Assembly (NCBI GenBank): GCA_016793885.1
Contig: JAEUHE010000124.1
Coordinates: 1 to 56,065, forward strand
DNA length: 56,065 nucleotides
Direction: 5' to 3'
Origin: Verrucomicrobiales bacterium
GTDB taxonomy: Bacteria > Verrucomicrobiota > Verrucomicrobiia > Limisphaerales > UBA11320
Position numbers and translations under genes: made by a program
Shown here: piece after piece, positions 42,391-56,065 of the stretch
Layout of the letters: every line of letters begins with the position of its first letter
How positions within the stretch are numbered: position 1 is the stretch's first letter
The notes under the pieces: model-generated
What the model was told of the DNA's origin: nothing
Database searches by the model: none
The model's input: only the letters and a program-made list of their open reading frames with translations

Positions 42391-44973
42391 ATGAGCTTTA
42401 TGCGCAGCATACGCAGCCGCAAGGCCCGACAAACCCTCGAGTCGAGAGCATGGCGGCGCTCCGCAGCCAGGATTTGGACGGGACTGCTCTTGCTTTGGGC
42501 CGCCCAACCCAGCCACGCGGCGCCCTCCCCAGCCGCCGGGTCGCATTGGTCCTTCGCCCCGGTCCGGCAGCCGGCCCTCCCGGCACAACTGGATCCGAGC
42601 CACACGGACATTGACCGATTTATCGTCGCGGCGCTCCAAAAGCGTGGACTCACCCTAGCCGGCTCGCTTCCACGCTGGCAGTGGATTCGACGCGCCACCT
42701 TCGACCTAACCGGCCTTCCCCCGACCTGGGAGGAGGTCCAAGCCTTTGTCGAGGACAACTCCCCCCAGGCCAAAGAGAAGGTGCTGGACCGATTGCTTGC
42801 CTCGCCACGCTACGGCGAGCGCTGGGGAAGACACTGGTTGGACCTGGCTCGCTACGCGGACACCCTGGGTGGCAGTGCCATCGGTTTCACGCGCTTCCCG
42901 TTCTCATACACCTACCGCGATTACGTGATTCGCTCCTTCAACGTCGATACCCCTTACGACCGCTTTCTAACGGAGCAGATCGCCGCCGACCAGATGGGAC
43001 TCCCCGAGAATGACCCCGCCCTCGCCGGACTGGGATTCCTGACAGTAGGGATGCAGTATCGCAACCGACACGACGTCATTGACGACCAGATCGACGTCAT
43101 CTCACGCGGCCTGATGGGGCTGACGGTGGCCTGCGCTCGCTGCCATGATCACAAGTACGATCCCATCCCCACCAAGGATTACTACTCCCTCTACGCCGCG
43201 CTCGCACCCAGCCGTTCTCCGGAACTTCTCCCGCTGTTGGGCAAAACTGAGGAGACGGATGCTTACCGCGACTACCAGCGCGAACTGGGACGCCTGCAAA
43301 CTCGGCATGACGAAATGGCCGCGGAACAGAATGAAGTCATGCGAGCCCGACTGCGCATGCAAGTGGGGCTCTACCTGCGTGAGCTCGCCAAGGGGGTCCC
43401 GGAACAGGATCTCTCCACCGCGTTCCTGTCCTACCGAACCGACGACATCCGACCGTTGGTGCTCAACCGTTGGCGTGAGTATCTCGCGAAAATGCCAGAG
43501 CAGGAACCAGTCTTCGGCCCGTGGGTGAAACTGGCTAGACTCCCGGCAGCAGGTTTCGCGGAGTCCTGCACCAACCTGGTCAAGACCCTGGAGAAGGAGA
43601 ACGGAGATCCAGCCAAATTCAAAGACCTGCACCGCTTGACCGCCGAAGCGCCCACCTGGAATCCACTCATCCTAAAAGCGCTGGCCAGCAAGGCCCCAAG
43701 GACCATGATCGAGGTGGCCGATGTCTACGGGGAGGTCTTCTCCAGCGCGCATCAAGGGTGGTTGAAGGCTCTGCACACGGCTTCCGCCGAAGCCGCACCC
43801 GGAGCGGAAATCATCCCCGACGAGGACCCCCGTCAGCTTGAGATCAATAGTCCGGTGACACGGCAACTCCGCCGCCATCTCTACGGCAGTTCCAGCCCCA
43901 CCTCCGTACCCGATCCGATCGCCCTCACTTTGTTGAACCGCACAGTGAATGATAACCTCGCCGGTCGTCGAGGTTCCATCCATGAGCTTCATTTGAACGC
44001 CGCTGGCTCACCACCTCGAGCCATGTCACTGGAGGAGAGTCCCACACCAGAGACCTATCATGTGCTCCAGCGCGGCAATCCACTAGCGCGCGGTACGGTG
44101 GTCGCGCCCGGATTCCTCTCTGTGATTTCCCCGACCAATGCAGGGCTCTGGCCGGATCGAAATCGCCGGCTGGCGCTTGCTCGCGCGGTGGTTTCGCCAA
44201 ACAATCCGCTCACCCGTCGAGTGCTCGTCAATTGGGTATGGCAACACCACTTCGGACAGGGATTGGTAAAAACCCCGGACGACTGGGGCACAAGAGGCAA
44301 CCGTCCTACTCATCCAGAGCTATTGGATTATCTCGCCTCCACTTTTGCGGAGGAAGGTTGGTCGATCAAACAGCTCCATCGACGCATCATGCTTTCGGCC
44401 GTCTATGGCCAACGCGCCGCAGAGAATGAGCAAGCCAGGAATATCGACCCTGAAAACGAGCTGTTGTGGCGGATGCCAAGCCGCCGGTTGGAGCTCGAGG
44501 CGATGCTCGATTCCATGCTGGCGACCTCCGGAGAGCTGGACCTCACCATCGGCGGCCGGCCATTCGACCGCCAAAACCAGCCCAAGGTGCATCGACGTAG
44601 CGTTTACGCCTTCGTCAACCGTGACATCGTTTCAAACCTCTCCAGCACCTTCGACGCCGCCAACCCCAGCGCCTGCACCGCCCGTCGCCCCGACACCACC
44701 GTCCCTCAGCAAGCATTGTTCGCGCTGAACTCCGAGTTCATTCAAGACCGTGCCATAGCGTTGGCCGCCCAGGTGGCGGCGAGCGCAGGAGACGACGAGG
44801 CGCGTCGCGTTCGCGAGCTGTACCGTCGGATCTTCTCACGAGAGCCCAATCCCGCCGAAGAGGATCGCATGCTACGCTTCGTCCGCTCCGCCGCCGAACC
44901 CTCCTCGACGGCAGCCTGGCAACAGGTCGCCCACACCCTCCTTGCCGCCAACGAATTTTCCTTCGTCGACTAA
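42391..44973 (+). CDS. DUF1549/DUF1553 haem-motif protein
   Basis: An 860-residue secreted protein of the planctomycete-cytochrome-associated family. After an export signal come DUF1549 (TDIDRFIVAALQKRGL, RRATFDLTGLPPTWEEV, YGERWGRHWLDLARYADT) with the haem-type motif CARCHDHKYDPI, a helical linker, and DUF1553 (VLVNWVWQHHFGQGLVKTPD, NRPTHPELLDYLA). The N-terminal PSCyt1 cytochrome domain seen in many relatives is missing. The family is invariably paired with DUF1501, and the pair is presumed to act in periplasmic polysaccharide or sugar oxidation. The biochemical function is unproven. It ends 20 bp before the DUF1501 gene. Confidence 0.9.
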   Translation: MSFMRSIRSRKARQTLESRAWRRSAARIWTGLLLLWAAQPSHAAPSPAAGSHWSFAPVRQPALPAQLDPSHTDIDRFIVAALQKRGLTLAGSLPRWQWIRRATFDLTGLPPTWEEVQAFVEDNSPQAKEKVLDRLLASPRYGERWGRHWLDLARYADTLGGSAIGFTRFPFSYTYRDYVIRSFNVDTPYDRFLTEQIAADQMGLPENDPALAGLGFLTVGMQYRNRHDVIDDQIDVISRGLMGLTVACARCHDHKYDPIPTKDYYSLYAALAPSRSPELLPLLGKTEETDAYRDYQRELGRLQTRHDEMAAEQNEVMRARLRMQVGLYLRELAKGVPEQDLSTAFLSYRTDDIRPLVLNRWREYLAKMPEQEPVFGPWVKLARLPAAGFAESCTNLVKTLEKENGDPAKFKDLHRLTAEAPTWNPLILKALASKAPRTMIEVADVYGEVFSSAHQGWLKALHTASAEAAPGAEIIPDEDPRQLEINSPVTRQLRRHLYGSSSPTSVPDPIALTLLNRTVNDNLAGRRGSIHELHLNAAGSPPRAMSLEESPTPETYHVLQRGNPLARGTVVAPGFLSVISPTNAGLWPDRNRRLALARAVVSPNNPLTRRVLVNWVWQHHFGQGLVKTPDDWGTRGNRPTHPELLDYLASTFAEEGWSIKQLHRRIMLSAVYGQRAAENEQARNIDPENELLWRMPSRRLELEAMLDSMLATSGELDLTIGGRPFDRQNQPKVHRRSVYAFVNRDIVSNLSSTFDAANPSACTARRPDTTVPQQALFALNSEFIQDRAIALAAQVAASAGDDEARRVRELYRRIFSREPNPAEEDRMLRFVRSAAEPSSTAAWQQVAHTLLAANEFSFVD

Positions 44974-44993: not shown

Positions 44994-46385
44994 ATGCACA
45001 CCTGGCTTACTTCCTCGCGACGGGACTTTCTCAAACGGTGCGGGATGGGCTTCGGATCGCTCGCGCTCGCCGATTTGCTCAGCTCCCGGGCACAGGCCGC
45101 CGAGGTGACGTCGCATTTTGCGCCCCGAGCCAAAAGCGTGATTCATGTGTTTCTCAACGGAGGCATGTCTCAGGTCGACACGTTCGACCCCAAGCCGGAG
45201 TTGACCAAGCGCGGTGGCCAGATGCTGCCCTTTGAGAATCTGCAAACCGAACGAAAGACCGGCGTCGCCTTGCCATCTCCCTTCACGTTCCGAAATCACG
45301 GGCAGAGCGGCATTCCCATCAGCGACCTGTGGCCAAACCTTTCCCGGTGCGCCGATGAACTGGCCGTGATCCGGTCGATGCACGTGGAACTCCCCAGCCA
45401 CGAGCTGTCGCTCATGCTCATGAACACCGGCGATCAAAGGCAGGTCCGTCCGAGCCTCGGATCCTGGCTCACCTGGGGCATGGGATCGGAGAACCAGAAC
45501 CTGCCAGGGTTTGTCGCCCTGTGCCCGGGTGGCATGCCGGTCGGGGGCGCGGGGAATTGGAGGTCCGCCTTCCTGCCCGGAGCCTACCAGGGAACCCATA
45601 TCGACACTTCCCAGGCCGACCCCAAGAAGCTCATCGAGCATATCCGAAACACGCGGGTAACCGCTCAGGCCCAGAAAGCTCAGTTTGAACTTCTCCGGGA
45701 GCTGAATGCGGACCATCTGGCATCACGTCCGGGAGAAACCGCGCTGGAGTCGCGCATCCGATCCTTCGAACTCGCCTACCGTATGCAGATGGAAGCGACC
45801 GACGCGTTCGACATCGATCAAGAGCCCGAGCACATTCGAAAAGCCTACGGTGAAGGACCCCAGAACCGTCAGCTGCTCATGGCTCGGAGGTTGGTCGAGC
45901 GAGGGGTTCGCTTCGTGCAAACCTGGCATGGGAACCTTCAGCCCTGGGACAGCCATTCCAACATTCGGGAGGAGCACCGGAAAGTTGCCAACGAGTGCGA
46001 TCAGGGTTTGGCGGCGCTCATCATGGATCTGAAGCAGCGCGGACTGCTCGAATCGACTCTCATCCTCTGCAGCGGGGAGTTTGGACGCACACCCTCCGTG
46101 GAGATGGGACAGAACGGCTCCGGGGCCGCACAAGGCCGCGACCACAACCACTGGGGGTTCTCCCTGTGGCTGGCAGGTGGCGGTGTTAAGGGCGGCACGA
46201 TCTATGGCGCTACCGATGAGTTTGGCTTTCGGGCCGTCGACAAACCGGTGTCCGTGCACGACCTACACGCCACCATGCTGCGACTCCTGGGATTCGATCA
46301 TGAGCGCCTGACCTTCCGCTACGCCGGCCGGGACTTCCGCCTGACCGACGTCTACGGAAACGTAGTCCACGACATCATTGCCTAG
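44994..46385 (+). CDS. DUF1501 protein, Tat-exported
   Basis: A 463-residue protein with a twin-arginine signal (SRRDFLKRCGMGFGSLALAD). The DUF1501 body follows: VIHVFLNGGMSQVDTFDPKP, GNLQPWDSHSNI, LILCSGEFGRTPSVE, GRDHNHWGFSLWLAGGG. The fold is alkaline-phosphatase/sulfatase-like, with His and Asp residues suited to metal binding. It is the standard partner of DUF1553, and the two are co-transcribed here. The substrate is unknown. The stop codon TAG (46383-46385) lies inside the left arm of a 12-bp inverted repeat. Confidence 0.9.
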   Translation: MHTWLTSSRRDFLKRCGMGFGSLALADLLSSRAQAAEVTSHFAPRAKSVIHVFLNGGMSQVDTFDPKPELTKRGGQMLPFENLQTERKTGVALPSPFTFRNHGQSGIPISDLWPNLSRCADELAVIRSMHVELPSHELSLMLMNTGDQRQVRPSLGSWLTWGMGSENQNLPGFVALCPGGMPVGGAGNWRSAFLPGAYQGTHIDTSQADPKKLIEHIRNTRVTAQAQKAQFELLRELNADHLASRPGETALESRIRSFELAYRMQMEATDAFDIDQEPEHIRKAYGEGPQNRQLLMARRLVERGVRFVQTWHGNLQPWDSHSNIREEHRKVANECDQGLAALIMDLKQRGLLESTLILCSGEFGRTPSVEMGQNGSGAAQGRDHNHWGFSLWLAGGGVKGGTIYGATDEFGFRAVDKPVSVHDLHATMLRLLGFDHERLTFRYAGRDFRLTDVYGNVVHDIIA

Positions 46386-46466: not shown

Positions 46467-46818
46467 AAGGCACTGCGTGCGAGAAGATAGATGTCTTTTG
46501 ATATTCAAGGGGTTCGTAAATAAGTTTCTGGAGAGGGGCACCTCCGAAAAATGGACGTGAATGGAGGCCATGAACCTGGTGGCAGGGGAGCGAGCGGGGC
46601 AGCTCTATGGACTGCGGTGGCACGACACCGCTTTTCCTTCGCCCGAGTTCAGTCCCTCTAACGGGGGCGTTCACAAGAGGCACACCAGCAGCCACTCCGC
46701 CACGCGCAGGAAAGCTCAGGACATGTCTCCGAAGTCCACAGCGCCTGGTTCTTTCGCTTGCGATTGCAAAGCTCCGGACACCGAAGCGAGCGACCGGTTC
46801 ATGGAAGGTCGACCGAAT
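46386..46818. other. Convergent gap, about 430 bp, no sure gene
   Basis: This lies between the DUF1501 gene and ATPase C. It holds the 12-bp inverted repeat and a hairpin GCGGTG (46614-46619) with CACCGC (46626-46631) followed by TTTTCCTTC, which may be a terminator or a dispersed palindrome. A minus-strand open frame (46821-46447, 124 codons) begins in an ATGA overlap with ATPase C but is Arg/Ser/Pro-rich and unrecognised, so I do not call it a gene with confidence. Confidence 0.5.
46614..46635 (+). terminator. Hairpin with T-run after DUF1501
   Basis: GCGGTG (46614-46619) pairs with CACCGC (46626-46631) around GCACGA and is followed by TTTT. It is about 230 bp past the DUF1501 stop, far for a terminator. 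Confidence 0.35.
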
Positions 46819-49142
46819 CATGGTTCGGTCGCCCGATCCAATATGCTCACCCTTCCCTCTTCATCCAAGTCGAGGTGCAGCGTGCGGTTGCGGGCCTTGG
46901 GCCAAGCCATCCGCCACTCAGCTAGGCGCACGGCCACCTGACTTTCGATGACGCGCTGCAGGGGGCGAGCTCCGAAACGGTGATCGTAACCATCGCGAGC
47001 CAGCGAGCTGACGACACGATCAGACCAAGTGACCTTCAGGTTCGCTGCCGCCAAGCCCTCGCGGGCTGCCAACTCAGAAAGTTCCTTCCGCGCGATCTGC
47101 TTCACATCCTCGGCACCGAGCGCCTTAAAAGTAATCACCTCATCCAGACGATTGAAGAACTCCGGGCGAAAGAACTTCGTGACTTCGGCCTCCTGGCCAA
47201 CCTCGGTGCCAATGCCAAAGCCGGCGCTATCGCGTGTCGATGCACCGAGATTGGATGTCATGACGACAATGGCGCTGCGAAACCAGGTGATGCGTCCGAA
47301 GCGGTCGGTGAGCCTACCCTCGTCCATGAGGCCCAGCATAATGTCAAAAATCTCCGGAGCGGCTTTTTCGAGCTCGTCGAACAGGACGACACAGAAAGGC
47401 TGGCGGCGAACCGATTCGATCCATGACGCAGGTCGGCCATTCTCGCCTTGAAGAAACCGCTGAGCCGATCCCCACCCTGAATACTCACTCATATCCAAGC
47501 GAACGAGTCGATCCTTCGCGCCATTGGAACCGAAACAAAACTCGACGAGCGCCTTCGCCAACGCAGTTTTTCCCACGCCCGTAGGCCCGCAGAACAGCAG
47601 CACGCCCAAGGGCCGGGACGGATCAGTCAGTCCGGTCTTGATCGAAACGAGCAGCCGGGATCCAGCAGTAACCGCATCGGGCTGACCGACAATCTCGGCG
47701 ACGAGTCGGTTTCTCACCTGCTCAATAGGCAGCAGCGACTCGTCGCGTAAGAAGACTTCCGGCAGACCTGTAAGCTGGGCGAACTGCGCGATAACGTCGC
47801 CAGCAGTGACCGTTTTGCGGCTTGGGGCGCCCGTGGGAGGAGCCTGGATTAGCCTTCGGAGGAAATTGGCAGCGTGCCCGGGGAAAGCCGTGTAAGGTTG
47901 ATAGCGCTTAAACAGACGGAACACCAGTGCCGGAACGCCCACTTCAAGGTCGAGTTGCGCCGTGGCAGCCTGAGTGGAAGCTACTCGTTGAAGCACCAGC
48001 TCCGCAGTCGACTCGTCGAATAAGGGGACTGGCACAATCTGGAAGACATCGAGCAATCCGGGAAGCAATCGACGACACGCCAACACCTCCTCCGGGGTCG
48101 CTTCCGCAACCATGCGCAACTCGCCACGCTCTAGATAGGGGAGCAGGAAGGCCGCCACGCTGTCGCCTGCGCCTTGGCCGCCAACTTGTAGGAGCTCGAG
48201 CAGGCTCTCAGCGCAGAAAATTCCATCAATCTCTTTCAACTGGGCGATCAACGCTTCGCATCGTTCCTCCCATTCACCCAGAAAACGCATTCCCGAGATC
48301 AAACGGCCACCGCTCCCTCTCCAGCAGCGCAACGAAGCCTCCCCTGCATCTGAGTAACTCTGATCCTTGCCGGATTCCGTGGGCGAGGAAGCTCGCTCCA
48401 TTCGCGTCATGCGCTTCGCCGAATCCAGTAGGAGTGTGGTTTTACCCACGCCGCATTCGCCGACCAGCAGAACGTTGGCTTTCTCCTTCCCCAACTTGCG
48501 GGCGACCACTTCCGACAGCTGCTCACGACCGTAAGCCGCCGATGCATGCCGTTTGCGACCAACGTCGTACAGGAGCGGGTCGGCTACTGTAAACAGTAAC
48601 TTTAGCTCAGGCCTATCCACAGGCATGACGCGGCGAACCCTTTCCCCAAGGCTTGGGATAGGCAGCGTCTCTAGCCGACAGCGGGCCGACGGAAAACTGG
48701 AGGCCAGTTGCTCAGGGGTGACATCCCGGAGAGATTCTTTGACGTAATGAGCGACCAAGTTCGGGAGAGCCGAATGATCCTGATAGTTGAACTGCGCCGG
48801 AAGGTGCGGAACAACACAAAGAAGCAGCCCGTTGTCCTGCTTACCCGTCACGCAGGGAACCCGCAGGAACAGGGTTTCCGGGCAGGGTATGATCCTGGCG
48901 CCATGGCGATACTGAGGTCGGACCTCAACTTTCACTTCGATCAGGACCGCCTCACGCACTTCTGAATCAACCGCCCAAGGCTCGTGGTCCACACGCCAGT
49001 CCAATAATTCCTTAAGCTGAAGCACCGCTTCCTCAGGGGTCGAACCGTTAGCCGCAGCGCCCTCCAGGTCCCCAACCAGTGAGGCCGTGAACCAACCTGA
49101 GGCATCCTGCCAGGTCAAAATGGGGTAATGGTGGCTGCCCAT
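46818..49142 (-). CDS. Clp-like double AAA+ ATPase C with HicB-like N-terminus
   Basis: A 774-residue protein, third in the ATPase operon. Residues 5-48 (ILTWQDASGWFTASLVGDLE then NGSTPEEAVLQLKELLDW) resemble a HicB/UPF0150 domain. D1 has Walker A GECGVGKTT (about 228-236), but the Walker B is FCAES (Asp lost) and the Arg finger is absent. D2 has GPTGVGKT (519-526), VVLFDE (585-590), Arg finger RPEFFNR (659-665) and sensor-2 GARPLQR (724-730), so it should hydrolyse ATP. The D2 pore loop GYVG is missing. AGF (640-642) sits at the ClpP-loop position. There is no ClpB middle domain and no Clp_N repeat. It starts 3 nt after ATPase B stops and ends shortly after the D2 small domain, without the release-factor-like tail of A and B. 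Confidence 0.88.
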   Translation of the reverse strand: MGSHHYPILTWQDASGWFTASLVGDLEGAAANGSTPEEAVLQLKELLDWRVDHEPWAVDSEVREAVLIEVKVEVRPQYRHGARIIPCPETLFLRVPCVTGKQDNGLLLCVVPHLPAQFNYQDHSALPNLVAHYVKESLRDVTPEQLASSFPSARCRLETLPIPSLGERVRRVMPVDRPELKLLFTVADPLLYDVGRKRHASAAYGREQLSEVVARKLGKEKANVLLVGECGVGKTTLLLDSAKRMTRMERASSPTESGKDQSYSDAGEASLRCWRGSGGRLISGMRFLGEWEERCEALIAQLKEIDGIFCAESLLELLQVGGQGAGDSVAAFLLPYLERGELRMVAEATPEEVLACRRLLPGLLDVFQIVPVPLFDESTAELVLQRVASTQAATAQLDLEVGVPALVFRLFKRYQPYTAFPGHAANFLRRLIQAPPTGAPSRKTVTAGDVIAQFAQLTGLPEVFLRDESLLPIEQVRNRLVAEIVGQPDAVTAGSRLLVSIKTGLTDPSRPLGVLLFCGPTGVGKTALAKALVEFCFGSNGAKDRLVRLDMSEYSGWGSAQRFLQGENGRPASWIESVRRQPFCVVLFDELEKAAPEIFDIMLGLMDEGRLTDRFGRITWFRSAIVVMTSNLGASTRDSAGFGIGTEVGQEAEVTKFFRPEFFNRLDEVITFKALGAEDVKQIARKELSELAAREGLAAANLKVTWSDRVVSSLARDGYDHRFGARPLQRVIESQVAVRLAEWRMAWPKARNRTLHLDLDEEGRVSILDRATEP

Positions 49143-49145
49143 AGA

Positions 49146-52100
49146 TCAACTCTCCCGCGATAGACTCACCGCAACCTCCGGTGGCAAAGGCAACATCGAG
49201 AGTAGCAAACTTCGGAACTCGTCGTCCGAGGGCCGATCCGGAACGGTGACCCCGCTCCGAAAGTCTGTCATTCCCTGATTCTCAACGACACGCTGAATCA
49301 CGGGCCCAAGAGAATGAACATCCATGTCATCTACGGATGGAGAAAGCTGTTGGCATTGTGCCCCCCCGTTGCTGTCCGCGGCCAGCGTCTCCAGGCTCGT
49401 TAGGATGACTCCGGTGCCTCCGTCGGCCCGCTTGATCAGGATGAGGTTGGGTCCCTCGGGCAAAAACCGGCGGGCATCGTGGCCGACAATCCGGATCGCC
49501 ATCGAGCGTCCCTGAGGCTCACTGAGGTTCCCACTCCCGCCCAGGTTCTTTTCCCCGAGGGACTCCACCGACACCAACTTGGAAGCCCCCCAAATCGAGC
49601 CAAGAGCTTCGACATGCAATCGAACGAGGCGGTGCATCAGATCGTTGTCTTTGGCCAACAACGTACGGAACGTCAGTAGCAGGACCTCCTTCTCGCCATC
49701 CATAGGCGCTTGGGCGAGTGCCTCAAGCAGGGCAACCTCGCGAAGCAAGGCCGCGAGTGGCGAATCCGGCAGCTCCACAACGTCGGCCTCCAAGTCCTCA
49801 AGCGAATGCCTAACAGCAAAAACATCCCTCAATCGGTGCAAGAACGTTCCCGAAGGACTGTCAAACAACCTCTCTGGACGCAAGGTCCTGGCCCGCGGCA
49901 GCTTGGATGCTCGTTTAGGACGGCCAGCCATGACTTGCGCATCCTCGACATCTTTAATGAGCTGAAGCACATTCACGATGGATTCGCGACCAAGGAAGTA
50001 GCGCACGTGATGAGCAGGAAGAGCCGCCAGTTCAATCGTTCCCGCAGGCGCGTTCTTTCCCAACTCCGTTTCGATTCGGCGCAAAGCGCGTCGCACTCCA
50101 TCGAGAACCTTGACGGTCCAATTCGGATCGGATGCCAGCGGACTGGCTGGTCCTAAAGTCTCTGGCCAGGTTACCGAACGGTCCACGGGATTCAAACTTC
50201 TCAGGCTGACGGCAAATCCCGTCTCTTTCGCGGCCAGCAAGGCCATCATGGCAGTCCCTGGCGGCAACGCGACGAGCAGCTCTGCCAGTGGTTGAGCTAC
50301 TTCCCGTTCAATCACTCGCTTCAGGGCGCGCGCACCCAGCTGGGGATGATTCCCTAATCCCACCAGCCGCTGGATAGCGGCTGGGGCCACCGTTAACACA
50401 CCATCCCGACGGCGCAATCCATCACGCGTCAGAAGATTTCCAATGAGCAGGCCGCAAATGCGTTCCAAGTGAGTGGCATCCAGAGTGCGAAAAGGAACGA
50501 CTCGATCCAAACGATTGAAAAACTCAGGCCTAAAAAACTTCTCAGCTGCGGAGATATAGGCAGTGTCATCCGCTGCGGAACCAGCGGAGCCGACTCCAAA
50601 GCCGAGTCGCGCCCGGGACTCACGTGCGCCCAAGTTTGAGGTCATCAGGATCACCGTCTGAGTGAAATCCGTCACTCGCCCCAAAGAATCGGTCAGCCGG
50701 CCTTCGTCGAGGACCGCGAGCAACAGATCGAAAAGCTCCGGAGAGGCCTTCTCGATCTCATCGAACAAGACCACACTAAACGGCTGCCGTCGCACGGCAC
50801 TGGTCAGCAAGCCCTCCGGCTCCATCGGGGAACCGGTCAATCGGAGAACCGATGACGCGTCCACGTACTCGTTCATGTCGAAACGCAACAGCCGCTCCTT
50901 GCCGCCAAACAGAAGCTCGGCCAGAGCATTGGCGGCTTGTGTCTTACCTACCCCCGTTGGCCCCAGCAGGAGCAGAGTCCCCAAAGGCCGGCGCGGATCG
51001 TTGAGGCGTGCTTTCAGCGTCACCAGAATATCGGCGAAGGCTTCCAGGGCATTGTCCTGACCCACGACCCTCGTGCGCAGTTGCTCCAAGAGACTGCTGC
51101 GCTCCAACTTCACCGAGCCATCCAGCATGGCCACGCGCAGCCCGCTCTGTTGCTGGAACTCCTCCAACGCATCCGCTCGCGTGACCGGTTGTCCTGAATG
51201 CCGAGCGGCCAACCGTTTCAAAAAGTCCGCCGCTTTTCCAGGGAACGCGGCGTCGGTGCCGAAGCGACGAACCAGGTCGCAGGACGCCGGGACCACCTCC
51301 AAGTCGAACGCGCAGCGATGCGCTTCCTCCAGGGATCGGTCGACATGGATCAAGATGCGCAAGGTCTCAGCGTCGGACGGTTCTTCTACCGGGATGAGGT
51401 GAAATAGATCGGCGAATGCGCGGTCTCGTTCCTGGAGCTTGCGCCAGGCCTCGGGGGCGATTTCAGCAACCAACCGGACCGATCGACGTTCGAGCCACGG
51501 ACGAAGTACCTGGGCAACATTGAGGTCGGAGGCGGAACTGACCCCGGCGCTGAACAACCCGAGCAAGTCGTCGAAATAGAGCACCAGGTCTTTCTCTCGG
51601 GCATGTTCCAAGATAGCCAGCACCCGATTCTCCCACTCGCCCAAATAGCTCATTCCGCTGATAAGGCGCATAGGGGACACGAGCCAGACATCCGGCCCGT
51701 CACCAGAACCTCCTTTCCGACGGGCGCAGATTCGCCGCACGAGTTCGTGCAGCACCGTGGTCTTTCCAACCCGTCTGGGACCGACCAGCAGAACCGGTCG
51801 ACGATCATCGGCAACCAACAAGCGATCCAACTCCTCAACCTCATGATCACGATAAAAGGCGCGCTCCAGGTCGTCCGGATACATGCTATTCAACCGGCGA
51901 CCTGTTCTTCGCAACTCCACTTCACCCTCCTTCTTCTCCTGGCCGCCAAACAACGCGGCCCGGGTTGTGCCACTCTTCTTCGTGGCGAGTGAAGCGGGAT
52001 CCAGCGCCACTTCGAGAATGGTGAGGCGCCCCTTTCCGATCAGAGCAAAGTCATCCAGATCCACTGCGCCCCTGTCGCGTTCCATTTCCCGAAAATGTGG

Positions 52101-52505
52101 GGTGAATACCGTGACGGCGCGATCCGCCAACGTCTGGTTGGACAAGACTTCAAAATGGAGTTCGGGCAGCTTCGGACAAAAATAGAGTTTTCGACCGAAC
52201 GAGGAATAGCCAACCAGGAAAAAAAGTCGACGATGCGAGCCAGACTTGAGCTCAAGCCGCAGCTCAATCGTGGTCTCGTCCAACAAAGGATCAAAGGTCC
52301 ATGCCGCCAGGTCGTCATGGCGGGGGCTTCGACCTAACCCAAGGAGGAGCTGGTGGAGGTTGTTCGAAAGCTTAGCCAGAGCGCGAGTCAGTTTCTCGGC
52401 TCGCTGCACGGGTTCTCGCTGGAATAACGGTCGAACGACAAAGGTCGGGGAGATGCCCGGCCCCGAAGAGCGTTCCTCGATAAAGATTGGGATCGAAAAG
52501 ATCAT
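49146..52505 (-). CDS. Clp-like double AAA+ ATPase B
   Basis: An 1119-residue protein, second in the operon, 6 nt after A. An unrecognised N-terminal domain (1-205) is followed by D1 with Walker A GPRRVGKTT (242-250), a pore-loop-like SYLGEW (286-291) keeping Tyr, Walker B YFDD (310-313, Glu to Asp), and no Arg finger. D2 is intact for ATP use: GPTGVGKT (515-522), VVLFDE (578-583), RPEFFNR (659-665) and GARALKR (724-730). GYVG is replaced by a short TGSPMEPEGLL. LGF (634-636) matches ClpP-docking loops of ClpC. The C-terminal 370 residues are helical, then weakly PCRF-like (about 915-1045), alignable with the tail of A. A remodelling ATPase is expected; client and partners are unknown. Confidence 0.88.
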   Translation of the reverse strand: MIFSIPIFIEERSSGPGISPTFVVRPLFQREPVQRAEKLTRALAKLSNNLHQLLLGLGRSPRHDDLAAWTFDPLLDETTIELRLELKSGSHRRLFFLVGYSSFGRKLYFCPKLPELHFEVLSNQTLADRAVTVFTPHFREMERDRGAVDLDDFALIGKGRLTILEVALDPASLATKKSGTTRAALFGGQEKKEGEVELRRTGRRLNSMYPDDLERAFYRDHEVEELDRLLVADDRRPVLLVGPRRVGKTTVLHELVRRICARRKGGSGDGPDVWLVSPMRLISGMSYLGEWENRVLAILEHAREKDLVLYFDDLLGLFSAGVSSASDLNVAQVLRPWLERRSVRLVAEIAPEAWRKLQERDRAFADLFHLIPVEEPSDAETLRILIHVDRSLEEAHRCAFDLEVVPASCDLVRRFGTDAAFPGKAADFLKRLAARHSGQPVTRADALEEFQQQSGLRVAMLDGSVKLERSSLLEQLRTRVVGQDNALEAFADILVTLKARLNDPRRPLGTLLLLGPTGVGKTQAANALAELLFGGKERLLRFDMNEYVDASSVLRLTGSPMEPEGLLTSAVRRQPFSVVLFDEIEKASPELFDLLLAVLDEGRLTDSLGRVTDFTQTVILMTSNLGARESRARLGFGVGSAGSAADDTAYISAAEKFFRPEFFNRLDRVVPFRTLDATHLERICGLLIGNLLTRDGLRRRDGVLTVAPAAIQRLVGLGNHPQLGARALKRVIEREVAQPLAELLVALPPGTAMMALLAAKETGFAVSLRSLNPVDRSVTWPETLGPASPLASDPNWTVKVLDGVRRALRRIETELGKNAPAGTIELAALPAHHVRYFLGRESIVNVLQLIKDVEDAQVMAGRPKRASKLPRARTLRPERLFDSPSGTFLHRLRDVFAVRHSLEDLEADVVELPDSPLAALLREVALLEALAQAPMDGEKEVLLLTFRTLLAKDNDLMHRLVRLHVEALGSIWGASKLVSVESLGEKNLGGSGNLSEPQGRSMAIRIVGHDARRFLPEGPNLILIKRADGGTGVILTSLETLAADSNGGAQCQQLSPSVDDMDVHSLGPVIQRVVENQGMTDFRSGVTVPDRPSDDEFRSLLLSMLPLPPEVAVSLSRES

Positions 52506-52511
52506 AGGAAC

Positions 52512-55500
52512 TCAGCGGGTGGCCTCCTCGACGGCCAGCTCCAAGCGCTCCTCGGTTAGCACTGCCAAGCACTGTTTCAATCCCTCACCAGCCCAAGGTC
52601 GATCGCCGAGCTTCCGATCTCGGACAACTCCCTTCTCCTCAACATAGGTCCGACAGTTCGACGCGCCCCGGGCGTCAATACCGCCCTGGCGATGGATGCC
52701 GGGTGGTGGCTCATATTTGTCCACAGGTGGCGAAGCGGACTCGACCAGCACTTTGAACCCTTTGTTCCTTCGTTGGATGAGGTGCAAGCCAGCCTCCGAT
52801 TGAAATCGAACGGCAAACAAATCGCCCCGCAGATGCATCACAATACCCATCAACTCTTCCGGCGGCGAGGCGAGAAAGACACTCAGTTTCTGAGGGGTTT
52901 CACGGACCAGTTTGGTCACATTCGATGCCTTGCCGGCCGGGAGACGCAGATAGTCGAGTTTGAGGACTTCCCCCAGATCCAAAGCGAGGCGGTAATAGGT
53001 TAGCGCCAACTCGAGCAACGAGGATCGATCCTCACAGTAGAAGGCGAGTACAACATCATCCGGTGAGGACTGCTGGTGGCGAACCACTTCACGCTTCAAG
53101 TGCCGCAACTCCTTCGTCAGAGCATCCAACTCCTGGGTCATCAGGCTCTCATCGATCGCTGCACGCCCATGGAATAGCGTCAACGCGTCCGTCTCGAACT
53201 GGCTGGCCCGCTCAAGGAGGTCGGTTACCGCTCGCAAGCAGGCGCGCAGTTTCGGCCATCGAGCCAGACGGACTTGTATTTCCGGTGCCTTGCTCGCGTT
53301 GGGCTTGAGTCGACGCTCCAGAGATTCAAGCATGGCCACTTCGTCCTCTATCCTGCTGAACGAAACACACCGCACGAGCCGACCCACACGACGGCGCTGC
53401 TCGACCAGTCGCGTAATGATGGAATGAACAGCTGGGCTAGTGCGCTGTGGGTCGTTTTCCTCCTGAGCCTGAACTTTTACTTGAATCCGTCCTTGCTTCA
53501 ACCATACCGATACCTGCAGGGCGGTAGTGCTCCGGTATTGGTTGATCGCCTCGGCCAACGGTACCAGCAACTCTTGCTGGATGGCGCGTTTGAGAGGGCG
53601 AGCGCCATACCGCACATCATACCCGCGGCCGGCCAGATGGTGGGCGACCTCTGGCTGCCATTGCCACCGAATAGAGCGGAGGCGGAGACCATCCCGCAAT
53701 CGGAGCGAGTCCAGATGCTGCCTGGCGATCGCCAACACCGTATCCTGCGCCAGAGCATGGAATGGAACGATGGAGTCCAGCCGATTGTAAATCTCCGGAC
53801 GTAGGAACTGGCGCACTGCGTCAGAAAAATCGGATTGAACCTGAGCGCTCGACCCGGCGTCCGATCGGAAACCGGTCGGCCCGCGCTGGATTCGTTCCGC
53901 GCCCAAGTTCGAGGTCATCACGATGACACTATTGCAAAAGTCGGCGACTCGACCGGAGGCGTCCGTGAGCCGCCCCTCACCGAGAATCTGCAGCAGGAGG
54001 TCAAAAAAGCTTCGATCCGCTTTCTCGAATTCATCCAGCAACACGACGCTGAATGGCTGCTCCCGGATTCGTGCGGTGAGTAACCCTTCATTCCCGTTCG
54101 TCAACGGGCCGCCAATCAGCCGCTGAACCGACACCGGATCACTGAACTCGTTTAAGTCGAAACGGACGAGGCGACGAGGGTCACCGAACAGAAAACCGGC
54201 CAATGACTTCGCCATCTCGGTTTTTCCGGTGCCGGTCGGTCCGATGAACAAGAAGGAACCCAAAGGTTTACGTGGCCGGGCGAGCCTCGCTTTAACCACC
54301 ACCAGCAGCTCCACCACTCGAGCTACAGCTTCAGGCTGCCCCAGCACGCGTTGAGCAAACCACTCCCGCGTCGCCGTTAGATCCAAGTCGATCTCGTCAT
54401 CCAGCAACATCGGGGGCAAGCCCGTCTCCCGCGAGAAGGCAGCGATGACTTGCCCTTCGTTCAACTGCTTCTCCGGAAACCGGTCGGCCAACAAGTTCTT
54501 CAGAAAGCGCAACGGACGACCAGGATTCGCCGAGTAGGTGGCATAGCGCTCGTGAAGCCGATGCAGCCGAGCCAGTGCCAGCTCATTGGCTACACCATCC
54601 ATGCCCTCTTCGCCTGGAGACACAGCCAGAACCTTTCCGAGAATCTCTCGAGTTTGTCCAGCGGTACGCGCCGCGATAGCCAACGGCTGGAACGCACCGA
54701 GCAGGTGTGGCTCCTCGCGCTCGATCATGCTCAACTGCTCCGGCGTGCATTCGGCGATCGCGAGCACCTCGCCCCGCGCGATCCAGGGCCGCAGGAAACT
54801 ACCCACGCTCTGTTCCCCACGGGAAGCCTTGCCCACCTGAAGCAACTCATCCAGCCCGTTGAGATGAAGGATCGCCTGGGATTTGGAAACATCGCGGCAG
54901 AGAGACTGACAGCGTTCCTGCCACATTCCGAAGCCGATCTGTCCGGTCATCAGCCGCGAACCGCTGGTAGACCAAAACGAGCTGTGGCCAAAACCAAACT
55001 GATTCCGACGTCGGGCCAATTCGCGCACCAGCGCGGTCTTCCCGCACCCGGGAGGACCCACCAAAAGCACGCTACGAGCATTTGGTCCTGCCAACAGCTC
55101 GGCCAACTGTTGAAGCTCGGCATCCAACTCGAAAGCGGGCTCAGACACTCCGGCAGGGGCGGACTTTCCAGAGTTGCGTCGACCTGCGCCCCCAGTCCTT
55201 CGTCGCGGCGGCAGTTCCTCGGCCAGTTGACTCAGCGCGGATGACTGTTCCTCCTTGGCCTCTCCAGCCATGGCTAGCTCCTTCGGCGTCTTGCGGTGCG
55301 CGGCCAACTCCAAGTGCCCCACCCGGAGCTCAGAGACTCGCTCGAGCTGAGCCAACCGACTCAGGCTGAGTTGCGGACCCGCACCGGCCAACACCAGACG
55401 AACATGAGCCTCCAGGCGCTCCAGGAGGAGCGCGGGAGAGTTGGCGAACACGTAAACGCCAAGCCCAGGCACCGCTGCATGGCACACCTCATCCACGACC

Positions 55501-55808
55501 CATCGCACGAAATGAATCCGCAGCATCAGCGGTTCCTCCCACTCAGGTGAACGTCGTGGCGGATCGAATCTCAAGGTCACCGAGTCCACTTCGAGATCGG
55601 CTCGAAAATTTCGACGATGCAAGGAGAGGGCTGGTGAAAGGCTGGCGTCCTCCAGCAAAATTCTAGCTTTGGCTTCAAAGCAGGTCCGAGACTTCTGCCC
55701 GTCCGCCTCCAAAGCGGAGATTTCGGAATACCCCATCGCCTCCAAGAGTTGGGTCCCCTCCTCAAACACGCGAGTGACCGTGGTCAGTTGAAAGGGCATT
55801 TCGGGCAT
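52512..55808 (-). CDS. Clp-like AAA+ ATPase A with release-factor-like tail
   Basis: About 1098 residues, first gene of the operon. ATG 55808 is preferred over TTG 55814; ATG 55799 is also possible. Numbering here is from the TTG. The N-terminal domain (1-225) is unrecognised. D1 has Walker A GPPGCGKTA (253-261), but the Walker B became HLNGLD and the Arg finger is lost. D2 is complete (GPTGTGKT 525-532, VVLLDE 590-595, RPEIYNR 672-678, GARPLKR 737-743) but lacks the GYVG pore loop. TGF (647-649) is at the ClpP-loop site. Residues 815-1100 resemble a class-I release factor: a helical domain 1 (ELDALTKELRHLKREV), then a PCRF-like core (LRGDLFAVRFQSEAGLHLIQ). The GGQ peptidyl-hydrolysis motif is absent, so a ribosome-binding rather than catalytic role is inferred. 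Confidence 0.88.
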   Translation of the reverse strand: MPEMPFQLTTVTRVFEEGTQLLEAMGYSEISALEADGQKSRTCFEAKARILLEDASLSPALSLHRRNFRADLEVDSVTLRFDPPRRSPEWEEPLMLRIHFVRWVVDEVCHAAVPGLGVYVFANSPALLLERLEAHVRLVLAGAGPQLSLSRLAQLERVSELRVGHLELAAHRKTPKELAMAGEAKEEQSSALSQLAEELPPRRRTGGAGRRNSGKSAPAGVSEPAFELDAELQQLAELLAGPNARSVLLVGPPGCGKTALVRELARRRNQFGFGHSSFWSTSGSRLMTGQIGFGMWQERCQSLCRDVSKSQAILHLNGLDELLQVGKASRGEQSVGSFLRPWIARGEVLAIAECTPEQLSMIEREEPHLLGAFQPLAIAARTAGQTREILGKVLAVSPGEEGMDGVANELALARLHRLHERYATYSANPGRPLRFLKNLLADRFPEKQLNEGQVIAAFSRETGLPPMLLDDEIDLDLTATREWFAQRVLGQPEAVARVVELLVVVKARLARPRKPLGSFLFIGPTGTGKTEMAKSLAGFLFGDPRRLVRFDLNEFSDPVSVQRLIGGPLTNGNEGLLTARIREQPFSVVLLDEFEKADRSFFDLLLQILGEGRLTDASGRVADFCNSVIVMTSNLGAERIQRGPTGFRSDAGSSAQVQSDFSDAVRQFLRPEIYNRLDSIVPFHALAQDTVLAIARQHLDSLRLRDGLRLRSIRWQWQPEVAHHLAGRGYDVRYGARPLKRAIQQELLVPLAEAINQYRSTTALQVSVWLKQGRIQVKVQAQEENDPQRTSPAVHSIITRLVEQRRRVGRLVRCVSFSRIEDEVAMLESLERRLKPNASKAPEIQVRLARWPKLRACLRAVTDLLERASQFETDALTLFHGRAAIDESLMTQELDALTKELRHLKREVVRHQQSSPDDVVLAFYCEDRSSLLELALTYYRLALDLGEVLKLDYLRLPAGKASNVTKLVRETPQKLSVFLASPPEELMGIVMHLRGDLFAVRFQSEAGLHLIQRRNKGFKVLVESASPPVDKYEPPPGIHRQGGIDARGASNCRTYVEEKGVVRDRKLGDRPWAGEGLKQCLAVLTEERLELAVEEATR

Positions 55809-56065
55809 GGGCAAAACACGTCAGAACAATAGGATGCAACGTGCTGGAGCGAGAGTAAAAGACTCGCGAAGACTTTGTCTAGTGTGGTTCTCATGCGGCG
55901 CCAGTCCGAGAACCCGCAGGGTTCCGAGAGATTAGCCGGGCGATCGAAGATCCCCGGAATTCCGTTCCCTTTTCCGCCGCACCCTGAAAGGCGTGCCACC
56001 CGTCGTATAGCCTAACCGAACAAACGGATTAGGCTCCTTGAGTCCGGGTGACGCAAGTCTCAGAA
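55809..56065. promoter_or_regulatory. Upstream region of the AAA+ operon
   Basis: The last 257 bp carry no gene I can support. GCGAG (55849-55853) and CTCGC (55863-55867) form a short hairpin about 40 nt before the ATPase A start. A larger hairpin lies at 56009-56035. No convincing -35/-10 pair is visible on the minus strand. Confidence 0.35.
56009..56035. other. Hairpin with one bulge
   Basis: AGCCTAACCG (56009-56018) pairs with CGG-A-TTAGGCT (56025-56035) around AACAAA, with one bulged A. No T-run follows on either strand. It shares the word CCTAACCG with the inverted repeat at 9441-9450. Confidence 0.4.

Follow-up and report, generated by a model that had tools for sequence, protein, structure and literature searches.

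The last approximately 300 residues of ATPase A, a Clp-type protein encoded on contig JAEUHE010000124.1 of a Verrucomicrobiales bacterium (assembly GCA_016793885.1; the whole stretch of 56,065 nucleotides is hereafter the window), derive from a class-I release factor (RF). This derivation is well supported, mostly through the orthologues of A and a set of paralogues that we call class S, and on sequence comparison the tail is identified as a captured RF2-like class-I release factor minus the stop-codon loop and the GGQ domain. An earlier, sequence-only reading of the window had proposed a class-I RF-like C terminus fused to a Clp-type ATPase; the proposal was borne out by the match of the A-tail profile to RF1, of the S tail to RF2, and of the A and S tails to each other in hhalign. 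The gene and the parts of its tail are as follows.

52512..55814, minus strand: whole gene of ATPase A, 1100 amino acids from a TTG start, with an N-terminal domain, two AAA+ modules and the RF-derived tail (open reading frame [ORF], Pfam, orthologues)
52515..53426, minus strand: RF-derived tail, residues 797-1100 (profile comparisons)
53130..53426, minus strand: helical part in the place of RF domain 1 (position in the tail, hhalign)
52932..53129 (approximate), minus strand: block 1, end of RF domain 1 and start of domain 2, profile 104-168 against RF1 61-131 (PDB profile match)
52764..52844, minus strand: block 2, PCRF core motif GxxxxxxxxxExGxH, profile 196-222 against RF1 139-165 (profile match, conservation, pattern count)
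52677..52763, minus strand: about 29 residues where RF1 has about 112, the stretch that holds its SPF loop and entire GGQ domain (profile match)
52524..52676, minus strand: block 3, RF C-terminal block RTY...VRDRKLG and closing helix, profile 251-301 against RF1 277-332 (profile match)

A profile of six A tails retrieved RF1 (1rq0) as its first match in the PDB, with an E-value of 2.3e-4 and three colinear blocks, and an 11-sequence profile again placed RF1 first (3.5e-3). By hhalign, whose E-values are here single-pair values without database calibration, the A tail matched RFs at 7.4e-6 and the S tail at 3e-6; reversed profiles gave approximately 0.02, and the lowest of 60 column shuffles approximately 0.05 (0.049). 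The PCRF-core motif quoted in the sequence-only reading, LRGDLFAVRFQSEAGLH, is present at 52782-52832 and is conserved in the 11 A orthologues, with both glycines invariant and the glutamate and histidine almost so. It is also nearly specific to release factors: the pattern [ILVM]xG(x9)ExGxH had a single occurrence in the six-frame translation of the window (64,015 residues) and 84 in the gathered loci (719,406 residues), a set enriched in RF and tail-bearing proteins, and all distinct strings but one came from RF1, RF2 or tails of this family. The closing helix, which had also been judged similar to that of a release factor, aligns with the RF C terminus. The profile match that the same reading had called for was obtained through the orthologues, one of which matched PCRF at 1.8e-4; by itself, the A tail matched no Pfam or NCBIfam model.

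The absence of the GGQ tripeptide from A, noted previously, was correct and understated. In the profile alignment with RF1, the stop-codon loop region and the entire GGQ domain are deleted from the A tail, and none of the 31 tails (11 A, 10 S and 10 B) contains GGQ. Two A tails do contain the letters SPF; these were not taken for the codon-reading loop, since the RF region that holds this loop is absent there. By the known means of release factors, the tail can neither release peptides nor read stop codons.

A search of the window's genome (8.7 Mb) with PCRF (PF03462) returned two ordinary release factors and a third match, scoring above the curated cut-off, within a frame of 1182 amino acids. 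The protein in this frame is the class S member, a solo paralogue comprising HEAT repeats, two AAA+ modules related to those of A (34% identity), and a tail in the same place behind the ATPase core as that of A. The motifs of the S tail follow the order of RF2: GFxxD domain-1 helices, LxxMYxxxAxRR, VxGLGAxxLxxxExGLH, VRVEVxP and RRYDLGIGSRIKDLRTGxxTxRLxxxxRGxxxL. The last of these, which corresponds to IRSYVxxPYxxVKDLRTGxxxxNxxAVxDGDxD of RF2s from the same phylum, is the best-conserved segment of the S tail (0.68 versus 0.51-0.57 in the other large segments). A four-sequence S-tail profile retrieved RF2 from the PDB (E-value, 9.7e-17) in an alignment that runs colinearly through 10-341 of 350, and a ten-sequence profile did so at 8.4e-17. 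All 10 S members matched the prfB model TIGR00020 (best, 2.4e-16), and nine of the 10 matched Pfam PCRF; the prfA models matched fewer members and less strongly, which argues for an RF2-like origin of the S tail. Homology over the RF domains is therefore found in S directly and in A at the profile level only.

An AlphaFold model of the S tail, built with three sequences, had a predicted local distance difference test (pLDDT) score of 72 and a predicted template modelling (pTM) score of 0.60. All of the top 50 Foldseek matches to this model were RF1/RF2-type factors, and it is in the S model only that a predicted RF fold was recognized. The template modelling (TM) scores against RF1 and RF2 were low (0.3-0.5) because the domain arrangement differs or is unsure; over domains 2-4, VIA-align gave Z values of up to 15, with 205 residues at 5 A. 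None of the S tails has the SPF loop at the position where it would align. In its place, most S members conserve a basic loop, RxxxNPRxGRExTQED in several of them. The GGQ loop reads approximately KPxxSRxxxxA and domain 3 is otherwise alignable with that of release factors; PF00472 did not detect domain 3 of S.

The ATPase core places A in the Clp/Hsp100 AAA+ superfamily, with two AAA+ modules (D1 and D2) and a ClpB_D2-small domain. Its reading frame is intact, and an ATG at 55808 is a likelier start than the TTG. By Pfam, AAA_2 and ClpB_D2-small end at about residue 760, and a tail of about 300 residues follows. Neither A (311 bits) nor S (343 bits) is ClpB, both scoring below the 1232-bit cut-off of the ClpB model TIGR03346.

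55155..55814, minus strand: N-terminal domain of A, without a Pfam match
54495..55151, minus strand: AAA+ module D1 of A (Pfam and motif alignment)
53535..54482, minus strand: AAA+ module D2 and ClpB_D2-small of A (Pfam and motif alignment)

In D1 of A, Walker A is intact, the acidic pair of Walker B is replaced (HLNGLDEL versus FIDELHTL in ClpB), and GFGMW resembles a pore loop. D2 of A carries Walker A (GPTGTGKTE), Walker B (LLDEFEKA) and an arginine finger (FLRPEIYNRLD). Class S and ATPases B and C, whose genes follow that of A, share these features in an alignment of examples compared by eye, with D1 of B taken from its ORF translation: D1 of every class has an altered Walker B acidic pair and retains an aromatic pore-loop-like residue, and D2 of every class has an intact Walker A, an intact Walker B and an intact arginine finger. 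The D2 pore loop GYVG of ClpB was not seen in the aligned D2 of A or of any other class.

49146..52505, minus strand: ATPase B, 1119 amino acids, second cassette gene, separated from A by 6 bases (ORF, Pfam, conserved order)
49149..50156, minus strand: tail of B, more decayed and weakly RF-like, with a D-x-R-(S/T)-G motif as in the RF2 C terminus
46818..49142, minus strand: ATPase C, 774 amino acids, third gene of the cassette, 3 bases after B, without an RF tail (ORF, Pfam)

The relation of the B tail to release factors is suggested by the D-x-R-(S/T)-G motif and by hhalign values of 7e-5 to 5e-4; a B-tail profile found no match in the PDB. The order A-B-C with gaps of a few bases was observed in the window and in six other genomes (G138, G017, G656, G701, G697 and G698), and the cassette is kept in several families. 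In G674, A and B are present and no C was seen; in G039 and G139, the contigs that carry the genes are separate or cut. In G069 (L053 5000-14179), frame breaks split all three genes, through either decay or assembly errors. The N-terminal domains of C (48573-49142) and B (51861-52505), like that of A, are without a Pfam match, and the start of C is slightly HicB-type-like.

In a tree of D2 sequences, A, B, C and S each formed one group, and all four were set apart from ClpB and ClpC by a long, fully supported branch. Support for the deep branching among the four was weak (88), so that a single fusion, followed by decay and by loss of the tail in C, is the simplest reading of their history and is not proven.

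Of 320 genomes in one order of Verrucomicrobiota, 11 carried A and 11 carried S. Outside that order, 378 sampled genomes of the phylum yielded one relative of A, and a similar phylum sample yielded no S. The A relative, L136 (G363:C40:9108-9773), belongs to a different order within the class and is a divergent A-type tail in a frame of 1167 amino acids. High-scoring RF-like matches elsewhere in the phylum (L058, L060 and L064) proved to be ordinary RF1 or RF2 with GGQ. A pattern scan of 84,980 species, which misses divergent members and was the sole test outside Verrucomicrobiota, found three S loci, all in Verrucomicrobiota. The ratio of nonsynonymous to synonymous substitution rates (dN/dS) in the tails was 0.17-0.47 where dS was finite, several dS values being near saturation, and the tails are under purifying selection. 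The genome also encodes RF1, RF2, an ArfB-like ORF and transfer-messenger RNA (tmRNA), and the fusion is therefore an addition to these.

Each half of the architecture has familiar relatives. With RF2 and RF1 (prfB and prfA; PCRF PF03462 plus RF-1 PF00472) the tails share the order of domains and, in domains 1 and 2 and the C-terminal block, the core motifs, but they lack GGQ and the SPF loop, and in A the whole GGQ domain, and are fused behind an AAA+ ATPase. Like ClpB, ClpA and ClpC (Hsp100), the proteins have two AAA+ modules, with D2 and D2-small retaining their catalytic motifs; they differ in their HEAT repeats (S) or unassigned N-terminal domains (A, B and C), in the loss of the D1 Walker B pair and D2 GYVG loop, and in their separate branch of the D2 tree. 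PrfH is likewise an RF paralogue with an altered recognition domain. According to a survey, however, it retains GGQ and lacks domain 1 (PMC6514570), whereas here GGQ is lost and domain 1 is present (S), so the proteins are not PrfH. The same survey describes Vms1/ANKZF1, of eukaryotic ribosome quality control, as RF-like and working with the AAA+ unfoldase Cdc48 (PMC6514570), a similar coupling in which the RF fold is unrelated (aeRF-1) and the partners are separate proteins. As bacterial RF versions it names RF1, RF2, ArfB and PrfH, and in the sections consulted no AAA+ fusion is mentioned (PMC6514570). A literature search, mostly of open-access papers, found no RF/AAA+ fusion of this kind. 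To our knowledge, no bacterial Hsp100-type ATPase has its own ribosome-factor domain. The architecture is apparently an unreported, new combination of two known families, and the series from S through A to B shows how a release factor can lose catalysis and be reused.

We hypothesize that the tail is a stop-codon-blind, hydrolysis-dead RF module that docks an AAA+ ring on ribosomes, a proposal that we hold to be evenly poised between right and wrong. From the homology, binding at the A site, with a role in rescue or in nascent-chain quality control, would be plausible. ATPases A, B and C would assemble together, A and B with tails and C without, and the RF fold may be the arm by which they dock on ribosomes, probably on those that are stalled or abnormal in some other way, or else on a partner that is itself bound to the ribosome. 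The pulling could then be done by D2, the sole module with a complete catalytic set, on a substrate associated with the ribosome (a nascent chain or bound factor, for example), and RF1, RF2, the ArfB-like protein or tmRNA would carry out peptide release. More tentatively, and somewhat short of even, the captured dead RF may direct a motor of the Hsp100 type to ribosomes that have stalled or been damaged, and may link recognition at the A site with extraction driven by ATP; this would be a counterpart, in one protein, of the Vms1-Cdc48 pair. If the tail binds ribosomes, the protein would be a bacterial quality-control machine with A-site recognition and mechanical remodelling in a single polypeptide.

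Several observations weigh against ribosome docking. The RF parts that were lost are exactly those that contact the codon and the peptidyl-tRNA; even S retains largely the RF fold core, with the codon-reading loop replaced and GAGG(T)E gone. Ordinary threading is uncertain, since the acidic pair of Walker B is missing from D1 and the GYVG pore loop from D2. No ribosome, ClpP or rescue gene was seen adjoining the cassette. The AlphaFold model of the A tail, made from few alignment rows, reached a pLDDT of 45 and was uninformative, giving evidence in neither direction.

The strongest alternative is that the RF-derived domain works off the ribosome, exapted as an oligomerization or substrate-adaptor domain of the ATPase complex. 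This is possible, although we doubt it more than we do ribosome docking. Every known functional RF loop is lost, the D1-D2 motifs are atypical, and the alternative is favoured by the drift of the A and B tails, which have diverged further than those of S and of which only scraps are left in B. However, the S tail keeps RF domains 1 and 2 and the remains of 3 at full length and in order, its most conserved part is the RF2 C-terminal block, and a new basic loop conserved in most members occupies the stop-codon loop site. We favour ribosome docking because S retains near full-length RF domains, because of this new loop, and because of the precedent of PrfH.

A special case of ribosome docking is a counter-conflict device, in which the module would sense toxin- or phage-damaged ribosomes as PrfH does and the ATPase would remove or remodel them. 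The patchy distribution and the precedent of PrfH as an RF with a changed recognition domain, given in the survey (PMC6514570), speak for it, but no toxin, RtcB or defence gene was recognized nearby and PADLOC matched the system as generic AAA only, and we think it improbable. A tail left over from an old fusion and now without function would agree with the stepwise loss from S through A and B to C, yet this reading is less probable again, given frames open across many divergent species, purifying selection and the invariant residues in A. Chance resemblance of an unrelated helical extension, suggested by the lack of Pfam and NCBIfam matches to A alone and by its modest E-values, is scarcely credible beside the colinear RF1 match at the top of the PDB list, the practically RF-specific core motif and the clear RF2 tail in the same place in the related ATPase S.

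No recurrent neighbour stood out in the cassette neighbourhoods. In the window, adjoining plus-strand ORFs at 42391-44973 and 44994-46385 resemble, by eye, a planctomycete/verrucomicrobial PSD1-type/DUF1501-type pair.
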